Position numbers and translations under genes: made by a program. The notes under the pieces were generated by a model. It made no database searches and had not been told where the DNA came from. It saw only the letters and a program-made list of their open reading frames with translations. Shown piece by piece: positions 34,436-39,452 of a DNA stretch of 64,000 bases. This DNA comes from Microbacteriaceae bacterium PS02068 (GTDB taxonomy: Bacteria; Actinomycetota; Actinomycetes; Actinomycetales; Microbacteriaceae), in contig JASCPF010000002.1 in assembly GCA_029959325.1 (NCBI GenBank), positions 1-64,000 of the forward strand, in the 5' to 3' direction. Position 1 is the stretch's first letter. Each line of letters opens with the position of its first letter.

Positions 34436-35887
34436 ATGACTACCGCAACGACCGCCCCGGCCACCAAGCAGGTCGCCATCAATGACATCGGATCTGCTGA
34501 AGACTTTCTGGCCGCGGTCGAACTGACCCTCAAGTTCTTCAACGACGGCGACCTCATCGAAGGAACCGTCGTGAAGATCGACCGCGACGAGGTCCTCCTC
34601 GACGTCGGCTACAAGACCGAGGGTGTCATCCCCTCGCGCGAGCTCTCGATCAAGCACGACGTCGACCCCAACGAGGTCGTCAAGGTCGGCGACGCTGTCG
34701 AGGCCCTCGTTCTCCAGAAGGAGGACAAGGAAGGCCGCCTCATCCTGTCCAAGAAGCGCGCGCAGTACGAGCGTGCGTGGGGCGACGTGGAGAAGATCAA
34801 GGAGAACGACGGTGTCGTCACCGGTTCCGTGATCGAGGTCGTCAAGGGTGGCCTCATCGTCGACATCGGCCTGCGCGGCTTCCTGCCGGCATCGCTCATC
34901 GAGCTGCGTCGCGTCCGCGACCTCACGCCGTACCTCGGTCAGGAGATCGAGGCCAAGATCCTCGAGCTCGACAAGAACCGCAACAACGTCGTGCTCAGCC
35001 GCCGCGCTCTGCTCGAGCAGACGCAGTCCGAGTCGCGCACCACGTTCCTGAACAACCTGCACAAGGGTCAGGTCCGCAAGGGTGTCGTCTCGTCGATCGT
35101 CAACTTCGGTGCGTTCGTCGACCTGGGCGGCGTGGACGGCCTCGTGCACGTCTCCGAGCTGTCCTGGAAGCACATCGAGCACGCGTCCGAGGTCGTCGAG
35201 GTGGGCCAGGAGGTCACCGTCGAGATCCTCGAGGTCGACCTCGACCGCGAGCGCGTCTCGCTGTCGCTCAAGGCGACGCAGGAAGACCCGTGGCAGGTGT
35301 TCGCCCGCACGCACGCGATCGGTCAGGTCGCGCCGGGCAAGGTCACCAAGCTCGTTCCGTTCGGTGCGTTCGTGCGCGTCGCAGACGGCATCGAGGGCCT
35401 CGTGCACATCTCGGAGCTCTCGGGCAAGCACGTCGAGCTGGCCGAGCAGGTCGTGTCGGTCGGCGAAGAGGTCTTCGTCAAGATCATCGACATCGACCTC
35501 GAGCGTCGTCGTATCTCGCTGTCGCTCAAGCAGGCCAACGAGTCGGTCGACCCCAGCGGCACCGAGTTCGACCCGGCGCTGTACGGCATGGCGACCGAGT
35601 ACGACGAGAACGGCGAGTACAAGTACCCCGAGGGCTTCGACGCCGAGTCGGGTGCCTGGCTCGAGGGCTTCGACGCGCAGCGCGAGAAGTGGGAGCAGGA
35701 GTACGCGGCTGCCCAGGCTCGCTGGGAGGCGCACAAGGTCGCCGTCGCGAAGTCGCTCGAGGCCGAGGCGAACGCCCCGACCGAGTCGTCGACCTCGTCG
35801 TCGTCCTTCACGTCCGACCTGGGCGGCGGCACGCTCGCCGACGACGAGGCGCTCGCGGCACTGCGCGAGAAGCTCTCGGGTCGCTGA
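34436..35887 (+). CDS. rpsA: 30S ribosomal protein S1
   Basis: S1 binds mRNA on the small subunit. The product is 483 residues with four S1 OB-fold repeats (starts near residues 38, 122, 210, 295), each with the G-F-V-D-I/L-G pattern, e.g. KGGLIVDIGLRGFLPASL and NFGAFVDLGGVDGLVHVSEL. This is the actinobacterial four-repeat form. Its C-terminal tail is acidic and Ser-rich. ATG 34436 follows AAGGA; longer in-frame starts to 34307 lie in the leader. Ends in a strong terminator. Confidence 0.98.
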   Translation: MTTATTAPATKQVAINDIGSAEDFLAAVELTLKFFNDGDLIEGTVVKIDRDEVLLDVGYKTEGVIPSRELSIKHDVDPNEVVKVGDAVEALVLQKEDKEGRLILSKKRAQYERAWGDVEKIKENDGVVTGSVIEVVKGGLIVDIGLRGFLPASLIELRRVRDLTPYLGQEIEAKILELDKNRNNVVLSRRALLEQTQSESRTTFLNNLHKGQVRKGVVSSIVNFGAFVDLGGVDGLVHVSELSWKHIEHASEVVEVGQEVTVEILEVDLDRERVSLSLKATQEDPWQVFARTHAIGQVAPGKVTKLVPFGAFVRVADGIEGLVHISELSGKHVELAEQVVSVGEEVFVKIIDIDLERRRISLSLKQANESVDPSGTEFDPALYGMATEYDENGEYKYPEGFDAESGAWLEGFDAQREKWEQEYAAAQARWEAHKVAVAKSLEAEANAPTESSTSSSSFTSDLGGGTLADDEALAALREKLSGR

Positions 35888-36000: not shown

Positions 36001-37665
36001 ATGGCACGGATGGCGTCGGCGGGTGCGACAGTGGCCGCCCTGCGTGAGCGGGCCCGCTTGTCGCTGCGCTTCGATGACCGCGATCGCCTGGCCGCGGGAA
36101 GCCAGCTGGTGCTCAGCGGCACCGTTGCCGTGCTCTTCGTCGCCGGCGTTGCGACCGGCATACTCGCCCGCCCTGGACTGTTCGCGATCGGTGCATTGGG
36201 TGTCGTGCTCGGCGGCATCGCCGCGCTTGCCGTGCCGTGGTCACGCGTCTCGCCCGGGTGGGTCATGGTCATCCCGATCATCGACATCCTCTCCATCGGC
36301 GTGCTGCGTCTGGCCGACCCCGAGCGCGGGCTCGGACTGCTGTGGGCATTTCCCGCGATGTGGCTGGCGACGATCGGAACGATCGGGTTCGTCGTCGCCT
36401 GCACCGCCATCCCTGCGCTCTACTGGGTGATCGTGGCTCTCGGGCCGTCGCCCACGTTCAGCTTCGCGACGCTCCTGCTGCCGCTCGTGATCATCGCGAT
36501 CAGCAGCGCGGGATACTCCTCGGCCCGCCGGTTCGCCGCCCAGCGCCACCTGCTCGACGCGCAGGCCGCCCGTCTCGCCTTCGCGCGCTCGGCCGCGGTG
36601 CGACAGGAGCAGCTCGTCACCGAGGTGCTCGACACCGTCGACTTCGGTGTGGTGCGGCTCGCCGTGGGCGGCGACGTCGTCTACGAGAACGACGCGATCG
36701 GGCGCCTCAGCAGTTCCATCCCCGGCCTGCACGTCGCGGTCCCGACGGTCAGTCTGTTCGAAGAAGACGGTGAAACGGGGCTCTCGGCTGCGAATCACCC
36801 GGTCGCCCGCGCGCGGCGGGGCGAGACGTTCGAAGACGAGGTCGTATGGTCGACGGATGCCGAGGGGCGGCGGACGGCGCTCACGTTCACCGCCCGCCGA
36901 CTGATCGACCATCGCGGTGCGGATTCCGGTGCCGTGCTGGTCGTGCGCGATGTGACGACCGAGCGCGAGGCGCTCCGGGCGCGCGACGATCTCGTCGCGT
37001 CGGTGTCGCACGAGCTGCGGACGCCCCTCACCTCGGTCCTCGGGTACCTCGAACTCGCCCTCGACGAAGACGACATCCCCCCGCGTGCGCGGCGCTATGT
37101 CGACACCGCTCTCGGCAGCGGTGAGCGACTGCTCACGATCGTCGCCGACATCCTCACCGCGACCCGTAAATCACGCCAATCGGTCGAGATCACGGTGCAC
37201 CCGCGCGAGGTCGATGTCGTCGAGGTCGTTCGCGCCTCGATCATCGCCATCCGTCCCTTCGCCGACGAGCGGGTCGTCAGGATCACCGTGAGCGGTGAGC
37301 GGCGAGCGATCGCGATCGCCGATCCCGGCCGTCTGCGCCAGGTGATCGACAACCTGCTCAGCAACGCGATCAAGTTCAATCGTGATGGCGGCACGGTCGA
37401 GATCACCGTGCACACCGATGGCGAGACGACCTCGATCGAGGTGCACGACACCGGGATCGGCATCGACGCCTCCGATCGGGAGCACGTGTTCGAACGCTTC
37501 TACCGGGCGTCGGACGCGGCGCCCGGGAACGGGCTCGGGCTCGCCATCAGCAGCGACATCATCCGGGCGCACGACGGTCGACTGACCGTGTCATCGGAGG
37601 TGGGCGTCGGCTCGACGTTCACCGTGACGCTGCCCGCCACCTCAGATGCGCGGGTGCCGCGATGA
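36001..37665 (+). CDS. Membrane sensor histidine kinase (no adjacent response regulator)
   Basis: A 554-residue kinase. Four to six hydrophobic helices lie in the first 180 residues. A PAS-like region (about 200-320) contains DFGVVRLAVGGDVVYENDAI. The HisKA box SVSHELRTPLTSVLGYLEL has phospho-acceptor His337. The HATPase_c domain has NLLSNAIKFNRDGG (N box), DTGIGI (G1) and NGLGLAIS (G2), all intact, so it should be active. GGGGGAGG precedes the ATG. It overlaps the next gene by 4 bases (ATGA). No receiver-domain gene is in the window. The signal is unknown. Confidence 0.92.
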   Translation: MARMASAGATVAALRERARLSLRFDDRDRLAAGSQLVLSGTVAVLFVAGVATGILARPGLFAIGALGVVLGGIAALAVPWSRVSPGWVMVIPIIDILSIGVLRLADPERGLGLLWAFPAMWLATIGTIGFVVACTAIPALYWVIVALGPSPTFSFATLLLPLVIIAISSAGYSSARRFAAQRHLLDAQAARLAFARSAAVRQEQLVTEVLDTVDFGVVRLAVGGDVVYENDAIGRLSSSIPGLHVAVPTVSLFEEDGETGLSAANHPVARARRGETFEDEVVWSTDAEGRRTALTFTARRLIDHRGADSGAVLVVRDVTTEREALRARDDLVASVSHELRTPLTSVLGYLELALDEDDIPPRARRYVDTALGSGERLLTIVADILTATRKSRQSVEITVHPREVDVVEVVRASIIAIRPFADERVVRITVSGERRAIAIADPGRLRQVIDNLLSNAIKFNRDGGTVEITVHTDGETTSIEVHDTGIGIDASDREHVFERFYRASDAAPGNGLGLAISSDIIRAHDGRLTVSSEVGVGSTFTVTLPATSDARVPR

Positions 37666-38837
37666 CCCTCGATCCGTTCACTGTCACGGTGCTGACCGCG
37701 CTCGTGGCATCCGTCGCCAGCGTCACGTTCATCCTCGAAACGGTGATCCGGCGTGACACCGGACCGGGGCGGCTGTGGGCGGTCAGCTTCTTCTGCGGCC
37801 TCACCACCACGGTCGCCTACATGGCGTGGTCGGCCGGTGTCGGCGGTACGGCCTCGATCGCGGTCGGCAACGCGCTGTTCGTCATGGTGCCCGGATTCAT
37901 GTGGCTCGGCGCGCGACGATTCAACGACCGGCCGGTGAGATTCGCGCTGGGCATCGTCGCCGTCGCCGCAGCGGCGACATTCTTCGCGGCCCTGTTCGCC
38001 GCGCCGTCGCCCGGCGGATGGGGCGGCTGGACGACCATGGCCGTGAGCCTCGTGGTGCTGTTCGTCGTCGGTGGCCTCGAGTGCGTCCGGGCGCCGATGG
38101 GGCGCATCCGCACCTCGTGGGCGCTGTCGGGGGTGCTGCTCTTCGCGGCGGCGTTCTACGCCGTCCGGTTCGTGATCTTCGTGGTGAGCGGGCCCGACAG
38201 TGTGCTCTTCGCGGAGTGGTTCGGCTCGGTGAGCGCGAGTTTCTTCACCATCGTGCTCACGATGGTCGCGGCGATCGTGACGTCGGTGCTGCGCTCGCAC
38301 CGCACGGCCGAGCGGCGCTACGAATGGCTCACCGAGGGCGGTGTGGCCGCCGACGGAGTGATGCTCGAGCGCACTTTCACCGCCGCGAGTGCCGACATCG
38401 TCGAGCGGGCGTCATGGCGAGGCGAAGGTGTGGCCCTGATCGTCATCCGGGTCGAGGGACTGAGCGAGATCCGCACGGCATTCGGGCAGGATGCCGGCGA
38501 CGCCATCGGTGGCGCATGCCGACAGGCGGTGCGCCGCTACGCACCGGCATCGGCCATCGTCGGCGAGGCAGGAGGAGATCGGCTCGCCGTCTGCGCGCTC
38601 GCGCGCACGGCGGCCGACGCGCGCCGGCTCGGCGCGATCATCTACCGCGGCTGCACGGAAGAGCTGGCCCTCGTGCAGTCGGGACTCTTCCCGTTCGTCG
38701 GCGTAGGCGTCGCCTTCACCGAAGATGTCGGCTATGAGCTGGAGCGTCTGCAGGAGGGTGCCCGCGCTGCCGCCCTGCGCGCCACCGAGACGCCGGGCGC
38801 GTCGGTGCTGCTCGACGCACCCGCGTCGCCGTCGTGA
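37662..38837 (+). CDS. 7-TM protein with degenerate GGDEF domain
   Basis: A 391-residue protein with seven hydrophobic helices (to about residue 215), then a GGDEF-like domain from FTAASADIVERASWRGE. The signature reads GGDR at residues 304-307 instead of GG(D/E)EF, and the residues around it (EAGGDRLAVCA) lack the catalytic pattern, so diguanylate cyclase activity is unlikely. It could bind GTP or c-di-GMP or act as a scaffold. It starts inside the kinase stop codon (ATGA), so the pair is translationally coupled and probably functionally linked. Confidence 0.8.
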   Translation: MTLDPFTVTVLTALVASVASVTFILETVIRRDTGPGRLWAVSFFCGLTTTVAYMAWSAGVGGTASIAVGNALFVMVPGFMWLGARRFNDRPVRFALGIVAVAAAATFFAALFAAPSPGGWGGWTTMAVSLVVLFVVGGLECVRAPMGRIRTSWALSGVLLFAAAFYAVRFVIFVVSGPDSVLFAEWFGSVSASFFTIVLTMVAAIVTSVLRSHRTAERRYEWLTEGGVAADGVMLERTFTAASADIVERASWRGEGVALIVIRVEGLSEIRTAFGQDAGDAIGGACRQAVRRYAPASAIVGEAGGDRLAVCALARTAADARRLGAIIYRGCTEELALVQSGLFPFVGVGVAFTEDVGYELERLQEGARAAALRATETPGASVLLDAPASPS

Positions 38838-38849
38838 CAGGCTGAGTGC

Positions 38850-39452
38850 ATGCCTCTCGTCGCGCTCACCGGTGGAATCGCCTCCGGAAAGTCCACGATC
38901 GCACGCCGCCTGGCGGCTCGCGGCGCCGTGATCGTCGATGCCGACGCGATCGTCCGCGAGGTGCAGCAGCCCGGTTCACCGGTACTGGATGCCATCGCCG
39001 CCGCCTTCGGCGCCGACGTGATCGACGACACCGGTGCCCTCGACCGTGCGGCGCTCGGAGCCCGCGTGTTCGGCAACGCCGAGGCGCTGGCACGTCTGAA
39101 TGCGATCGTGCACCCCGCAGTGCGGGCCGAATCGGCGCGGCGCTTCGCCGCTGCCGTCGCTGCAGATCCTGGCGCCGTCATCGTCTACGACGTGCCGCTC
39201 CTGGTCGAAGCCCGCGCCGACGACCCGTGGGACCTCATCGTGGTCGCTGATGCGCCGGCCGCCGTCCGTGCCCGTCGGCTGATCGAGTTGCGCGGGCTGA
39301 GCGAGGCCGAGGCATCCGCCCGCATCGCCTCGCAGGTCAGTGACGAACGTCGCCGCGCGATCGCGGATGTCGTCGTCGACACCTCCGGCACGCTCGAGGA
39401 CACCCTCGCGGCTGCCGATGCGCTGTGGGAGCGGATTCAGGCCGGGGTCTGA
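38850..39452 (+). CDS. coaE: Dephospho-CoA kinase
   Basis: Phosphorylates dephospho-CoA at the last step of CoA synthesis. The product is 200 residues. The P-loop GGIASGKST is at the start, with DADAIVREVQQPGSPV and VYDVPLLVEAR as family motifs, and SQVSDERRRAIADVVVDTSG near the end. ATG 6 bases after CAGGCT (38838-38843). coaE usually follows rpsA in actinobacteria; here two signalling genes lie between. Its 3' end overlaps the convergent DUF4126 gene by 16 bases. Confidence 0.96.
   Translation: MPLVALTGGIASGKSTIARRLAARGAVIVDADAIVREVQQPGSPVLDAIAAAFGADVIDDTGALDRAALGARVFGNAEALARLNAIVHPAVRAESARRFAAAVAADPGAVIVYDVPLLVEARADDPWDLIVVADAPAAVRARRLIELRGLSEAEASARIASQVSDERRRAIADVVVDTSGTLEDTLAAADALWERIQAGV

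Follow-up and report, generated by a model that had tools for sequence, protein, structure and literature searches.

The window analysed here is a stretch of 64,000 nucleotides (positions 1 to 64,000 of contig JASCPF010000002.1, assembly GCA_029959325.1) from Microbacteriaceae bacterium PS02068, whose genus is Microbacterium. Between rpsA and coaE it carries a pair of genes that we call HK1 and GG1: HK1 codes for a sensor histidine kinase, and GG1 for a protein with seven transmembrane (7-TM) helices followed by a degenerate GGDEF-fold domain. In most relatives, the pair is accompanied by a gene for a response regulator (RR), here called RR1, which is absent from the window. The features of the locus are as follows.

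36001–37665, + strand: HK1, sensor histidine kinase gene, an open reading frame (ORF) of 554 amino acids (aa) with the Pfam domains HisKA and HATPase_c.
37009–37011, + strand: codon of the phospho-acceptor His337 of HK1 (motif HELRTP), invariant in a 34-kinase alignment and in all 113 kinases of a larger set.
37111–37122, + strand: residues 371–374 of HK1, in helix alpha-2 of the DHp domain; LGSG here, ERNA (nearly invariant) where the locus keeps a two-domain RR.
37662–37665, + strand: ATGA, overlap of the HK1 stop and GG1 start codons (4 bases, from the ORF coordinates).
37662–38837, + strand: GG1, 7-TM protein with a degenerate GGDEF-fold domain, an ORF of 391 aa.
37674–38321, + strand: 7-TM input domain of GG1, residues 5–220, delimited from the model and from related domains in other proteins.
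38367–38813, + strand: degenerate GGDEF-fold domain of GG1, residues 236–384, from Pfam, model and alignment.
38571–38582, + strand: GGDR at the position of GG(D/E)EF, residues 304–307 of GG1, not conserved.
34436–35887, + strand: rpsA, flanking gene with four S1 stretches.
38850–39452, + strand: coaE, flanking gene; in most relatives a convergent receiver gene is found in that place.

An earlier, sequence-only reading of this DNA described the two genes as tightly coupled, as interrupting the rpsA–coaE order and as having no response regulator. The 4-base overlap and the two flanking genes bear out the first two statements. The third is correct for the window, where no receiver gene adjoins the pair and only 12 bases separate the stop codon of GG1 from the start of coaE, but it is incomplete as an account, the absence being a clade-specific loss, as argued below. 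Comparison with plasmids gave no match, and a search of the open-licence literature found no paper on the HK1–GG1 system. In named records, close relatives of GG1 are found in M. paulum (74%) and M. hominis (61%).

HK1 has the H, N and G boxes of a HisKA sensor kinase, and both of its domains score above the Pfam cut-offs (63.7 bits against 26.9 for HisKA, 107.6 bits against 26.4 for HATPase_c). His337, Asn451/Asn455, Asp483-Gly485-Gly487 and Gly509-Gly511-Gly513 do not vary among the 34 aligned kinases, which agrees with the earlier impression that HK1 is probably an active enzyme. The AlphaFold2 models of HK1 and GG1 were computed from alignments of the proteins of relatives; that of HK1 (pLDDT 84) consists of about six N-terminal TM helices, a long signalling helix, a DHp domain (residues 319–390) and a CA domain (402–545). 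In our reading of the model, residues 215–317 may adopt a PAS-like fold; Pfam reports no PAS domain.

The model of GG1 (pLDDT 86) shows the seven long helices that had been proposed (from 5–30 to 189–220), followed by a GGDEF-type fold; its best Foldseek matches are GGDEF structures, and residues 247–376 match the Pfam GGDEF model with 24.0 bits, barely above the cut-off of 23.8. What GG1 shares with diguanylate cyclases is the fold, while the signature, the metal-ligand residues and the GTP-contact residues are missing. The catalytic positions were placed with the help of three intact GGDEF references (from loci L228, L247 and L261), and we take the roles of the metal-ligand Asp, the GTP-contact Asn and the I-site positions to be those of PleD. 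None of the 83 aligned GG1 rows has a GG(D/E)EF signature, and neither does any of the 29 kinase-adjacent GG proteins of other genera. The metal-Asp position is an Arg in 70 of the 83 rows (Arg263 in the window), the GTP-contact Asn is mostly replaced by Ser or Ala (Arg271 in the window), and the RxxD motif of the I-site is lost, its Arg being a Pro in 77 rows and its Asp an Ala in 66 (Pro295 and Ala298 in the window). These alignments show GG1 to be a predicted non-cyclase, whose catalytic residues appear to have been lost anciently and family-wide; the sequence-only reading had likewise considered that GG1 probably does not make cyclic di-GMP (c-di-GMP). It had also envisaged that orthologues might keep the catalytic residues, this one having lost them recently; such a recent loss is rejected, since all 83 rows and all 29 kinase-adjacent homologues are degenerate. 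The GGDR sequence, on the other hand, is present as described but is accidental, and we do not retain it as a meaningful variant: the closest relatives have GADR, EDR, EHR or DTE endings there.

The 7-TM half of GG1 can be regarded as an input module, because it recurs on SpoIIE and on intact GGDEF domains: five proteins (L253–L257) carry it joined to a SpoIIE phosphatase domain, and another (L261:6037–7137) carries it joined to an intact GGDEF domain; L258 matched no family. No curated family name is above cut-off for this half, in the window protein or in the relatives from L253–L257 and L261. In its own genome, GG1 is the only GGDEF match and there is no EAL match (E ≤ 0.001). Within the genus, a strong GGDEF match (E < 1e-15) is found in 36 of 148 genomes, 25 of which are among the 86 genomes that carry GG1 (in a sample of 149); in the clade that lacks RR1, only G079 has one. 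Since most GG1-bearing genomes have no strong GGDEF match, GG1 persists where no cyclase is recognisable.

The pairing of HK1 with GG1 is well supported. GG1 is detected in 88 of the 149 genomes, or 86 if two weak matches that resemble a paralogue, GG2 (G058 and G072), are set aside; the GG1 counts exclude loci L111 and L112, which are GG2-like. HK1 lies directly upstream of GG1 in all 82 other copies called at the 78 Microbacterium loci described below (at L100 and L105, only a piece of HK1 is found), with the 4-base overlap in 65 of them; at L107, both genes are seen by tblastn but were missed by the gene caller. Five genomes (G136, G079, G035, G054 and G105) have two tandem copies of the pair with no RR beside them. 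GG1 is therefore an accessory gene that is co-inherited with its kinase, adjacent in 82 of 82 copies and doubled with it in five genomes. The tandem pairs without an RR are those of loci L043, L045, L046, L047 and L049. Among the other genera of the family, the A1 query matches 72 of 249 genomes and 32 of 85 genera; a kinase directly precedes the GG gene in 29 of the 40 loci that were read in these genera, and a receiver of the RR1 type is encoded within the stretch in 22 of those 29. At the level of the order, matches occur in 59 of 297 genomes, spread over several families, this being a count of matches alone.

The sequence-only reading had itself asked whether an RR gene adjoins the pair in most relatives, and it does. 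At the 78 Microbacterium loci that were read with their flanks (L033–L110, about 8–16 kb each), gene calls and tblastn reveal an RR1-like receiver at 62 and none at the other 16 (L033–L047 and L049); a kinase and an RR encoded together, which make a complete two-component system, are thus present at these 62 loci and not in the window. RR1 is the next gene after GG1, and convergent to it, in 60 of the 60 called loci, and has the same orientation at L107 and L109, where it is seen by tblastn (the RR of L109 by tblastn only). The loci scored for RR1 do not include those of the GG1-bearing genomes G046, G132, G030, G100, G091, G055 and G044. The called RR1 proteins are longer than 160 aa in 38 loci and at most 160 aa in 22. 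Pfam detects a receiver and a Trans_reg_C domain in L070, L084 and L095 (the latter barely, with 27.1 bits against 26.2), and a receiver alone in L098. On the kinase tree, the short forms occupy three clades, and one of these includes the two-domain RRs of L095 and L096 as well.

The kinases without an RR, including that of the window, form a single clade of 21 tips (support 0.81) in this tree, which excludes kinases shorter than 480 aa in the genus or outside 400–640 aa elsewhere and leaves L044 and a few others unplaced. One loss of the RR is the simplest explanation, because all placed RR-less kinases belong to one clade, and the absence of an RR in the window is well supported, from these comparisons, as a derived, clade-specific loss. 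We see in it a real and derived gene arrangement whose kind is known and whose third component is unusual, and not a new class of orphan kinase.

Where the signal of HK1 may go was examined in the genome itself, which contains 27 receiver-domain matches. The best match to the RR1 of L070, used as a query, is RR2, on contig C121 (52% identity, E 1.5e-66); after it, the next by E-value has 38% identity (8.4e-34), and the highest other identity among long matches is 40%. RR2 belongs to a second, paralogous system.

G000:C121 (L159:2914–6511), in the same genome as the window: complete paralogous triad HK2-GG2-RR2.

HK1 and HK2 are 37% identical, and GG1 and GG2 28% over 142 residues. The triad is presumably flanked by a truA-like pseudouridine synthase gene and exonuclease-like genes on one side, and by rplM- and rpsI-like genes on the other. 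The search for an orphan RR proposed in the sequence-only reading comes out negative: no orphan of the RR1 family was found in the own genome, and the single family member found there, RR2, is part of the triad. The idea that RR1 was relocated within the genome is not supported either, RR2 sitting in its own triad. Its placement is unstable: it falls among the fast-evolving RR1 forms in a FastTree analysis of all RRs, and outside both RR1 and the RR-long proteins in an IQ-TREE analysis of the two-domain RRs.

RR-long designates proteins of about 330 aa, found at L179–L194, that consist of a receiver, a long linker and a winged helix; reading them as tandem receivers was rejected in favour of this architecture. 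With the RRs of L111 and L112, they form a separate clade (bootstrap 99, IQ-TREE). When the RR-long of G081 is used as a query, RR2 is the only close match in the own genome (60% over the receiver). RR-long is also present in G046, whose locus is unscored for RR1, and in G123. In G136, G035, G054 and G079, neither HK2 nor GG2 lies beside RR-long, there is no strong GG2 match (G136 has a weak one, E 9.6e-12) and HK1-GG1 is doubled; these four genomes have orphan kinases together with an orphan RR. At L187, L190, L193 and L194, an orphan RR-long lies near a glycosyltransferase-like gene, and the stretch contains neither HK2 nor GG2. In G037, a GG2 match (G037:C5:5619–6326) has two in-frame TGA codons, so that this GG2 looks broken.

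A sign of changed partner choice may be found in helix alpha-2 of the DHp domain, which lies in the interface between a kinase and its RR. The four residues ERNA (371–374) are kept in 34, 36, 36 and 35, respectively, of the 36 HK1 that have a two-domain RR; the window has LGSG, and its four nearest relatives (L033–L036) have LSSS, LGSG, LSSG and LGSG. Three of their genomes (G138, G037 and G048) carry RR2, and G018 does not. R-N is retained elsewhere in the RR-less clade, and E-R-N (371–373) in the upstream tandem copies, the downstream ones (L043, L045, L046, L047 and L049) being devoid of the E. The change is therefore tied to the group of the window and not to the loss of RR1. Since it is one event on the tree, it is only suggestive of rewiring. 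A shift of alpha-1 of HK1 towards HK2 was looked for and not seen.

We propose, with moderate confidence, that HK1 and GG1 together form a single membrane sensor that is left over from a three-gene system and borrows its RR from elsewhere. Each would be an obligate subunit of this sensor: the seven-helix domain of GG1 would receive or shape the signal, and its dead GGDEF-fold domain may act as a protein–protein or dimerisation domain that sets the kinase/phosphatase state of HK1. Synteny shows that the pair descends from a system made of a histidine kinase, a 7-TM pseudo-GGDEF protein and a receiver or OmpR-type RR, and the tree and synteny together indicate that the RR was lost in the clade of the window, most simply once. 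Because all its catalytic residues are kept, HK1 most likely hands its phosphate to a remote RR, and signalling through a distant regulator, as had been suggested at the outset, is possible. In the own genome, RR2 is the best candidate for this role, in which case two sensor modules would converge on one regulator, although we would put this at somewhat less than an even chance. The broader scheme is more tentative still: a three-gene system conserved in Microbacteriaceae, with co-sensor relatives in neighbouring families, in which the RR is dispensable (cut down to the receiver alone in three clades, lost in a fourth) and the pair has been rewired to a paralogous RR, so that two co-sensor modules feed one regulator.

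Several observations weigh against this proposal. Of the 16 scored genomes that lack RR1, 15 (all but G080) have RR-long, which is an equally good candidate there, yet it is missing from the own genome. G080, which is 99% complete, keeps the pair without a close family RR (the best match, 45%, covers the receiver only, E 1.4e-22), so that no single RR serves the whole RR-less clade. The kinase is not intact everywhere, since at L076, L100 and L105, which do have RR1, HK1 seems to be truncated, divided between two frames or broken up by other genes. Residues T344 and G348 of alpha-1 are identical in HK1 and HK2 and hence do not discriminate between them. In the RR-less clade, HK1 and GG1 have diverged more quickly (0.54/0.54 versus 0.67/0.65 at matched CoaE identity, for a hand-picked set of 12 RR-less and 13 RR-bearing loci, with the last tandem copy and non-independent pairs), which fits altered partners or relaxed constraint. 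Last, both the contact between HK1 and GG1 and the transfer of phosphate from HK1 to RR2 are predictions.

It may be, first, that HK1 signals to another, less related RR encoded elsewhere in the genome. Many of the 27 receiver matches have no HisKA-type kinase detected alongside (the kinase model misses other classes), which leaves room for such a partner. However, only RR2, of the 21 own-genome RRs that were aligned (6 of the 27 were not), has the TTLDV and FR(P/A)RE features of RR1 and RR-long, and the other matches to RR1 do not exceed 40% identity apart from short stretches; we consider this rather unlikely. Second, HK1 could act without any RR; direct modulation of HK2-GG2 or of GG1 would be an example. 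This would account for the pair in G080, and the receiver-only RR1 of 22 of the 60 called loci implies that the system can in some cases do without a DNA-binding output; the retention of His337, of the HELRT motif and of the boxes of the ATP site, and the receiver encoded beside the pair in most relatives, make it improbable all the same. A third explanation, to which we give less credit, is that the pair lost its output with the RR and is on its way out: the faster divergence of HK1 and GG1 and the loss of the conserved alpha-2 residues in the group of the window would be expected from decay, but the catalytic boxes of HK1 are retained, tblastn finds a single uninterrupted kinase match for every copy at the RR-less loci (that of L044 runs into the end of a contig), and five RR-less genomes keep the pair in tandem. 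Least probable of all is that GG1 is a receptor of c-di-GMP or GTP that passes nucleotide status to the kinase, since, although the GGDEF fold is retained and intact GGDEF-EAL genes adjoin the pair in two other genera, the changes at the I-site, metal-ligand and GTP-contact positions, the low share of GG1-bearing genomes with a strong GGDEF match and the lack of any other GGDEF or EAL match in the own genome weaken the earlier suggestion that the remnant binds a nucleotide.

The one-sensor proposal, in which GG1 would be a co-sensor, can be compared with known systems. In LiaFSR, GraXSR, CovRS-RocA and QseG-QseE, a third protein also alters the output of the kinase; here, in contrast, the third protein is a 7-TM pseudo-GGDEF protein whose gene immediately follows that of the kinase, and the part that has been lost is the RR and not the accessory protein. 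The closest parallels are the HK2-GG2-RR2 triad and the 62 RR1-bearing loci, which have the same architecture and the same kinase/7-TM pairing, but where a receiver gene adjoins the pair.

Inactive GGDEF-fold domains are found in the regulatory proteins LapD and FimX, where an EAL domain is also present. YfgF is another regulatory protein that retains such a domain (PMC3718329). These three proteins carry EAL, whereas GG1 has none and its genome has no EAL match. Staphylococcal GdpS has kept a GGDEF motif and is not known to be encoded together with a kinase. It resembles GG1 in that no other GGDEF protein occurs in its genome; its action on the ica operon reportedly does not depend on c-di-GMP synthesis and was not abolished when the GGDEF domain was mutated, and at least part of it is ascribed to the RNA (PMC9714401). 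GG1 is not a GdpS, as it scores 18.1 bits against the model NF047872, for which the NCBIfam cut-off is 400.

A kinase and its RR are usually viewed as an inseparable two-component unit; here the inseparable unit appears to be the kinase and a membrane pseudo-enzyme. The RR has been trimmed or lost, and the two-domain RR, the receiver alone and no RR at all make a natural series, within one genus, for the study of rewiring. GG1 also points to a role of the GGDEF fold that is independent of c-di-GMP, most of its host genomes having no strong cyclase match. Intact-motif GGDEF-EAL genes adjoin the HK-GG pair in two other genera (L228:3534–5855 and L247:8760–10847), and these neighbours count against a complete break with c-di-GMP.

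Regarding the output of the system, the gene neighbourhood, taken alone, suggests the cell surface or the matrix. In 11 loci, genes for a SipW-like signal peptidase and small exported proteins follow RR1 on the same strand, and RR1 overlaps its downstream neighbour by 4–10 bases in four of them; the signal peptidase of L084, the one tested, is above the cut-off of TIGR02228. These loci are L048, L072, L077, L078, L084, L085, L088, L089, L091, L093 and L107. The small exported proteins are TasA-like in appearance, with no family above cut-off. In L232, from another genus, the RR gene lies between those for a family-2 glycosyltransferase and a GH6 hydrolase, and the same two kinds of enzyme are encoded near RR-long in L180 and L187.

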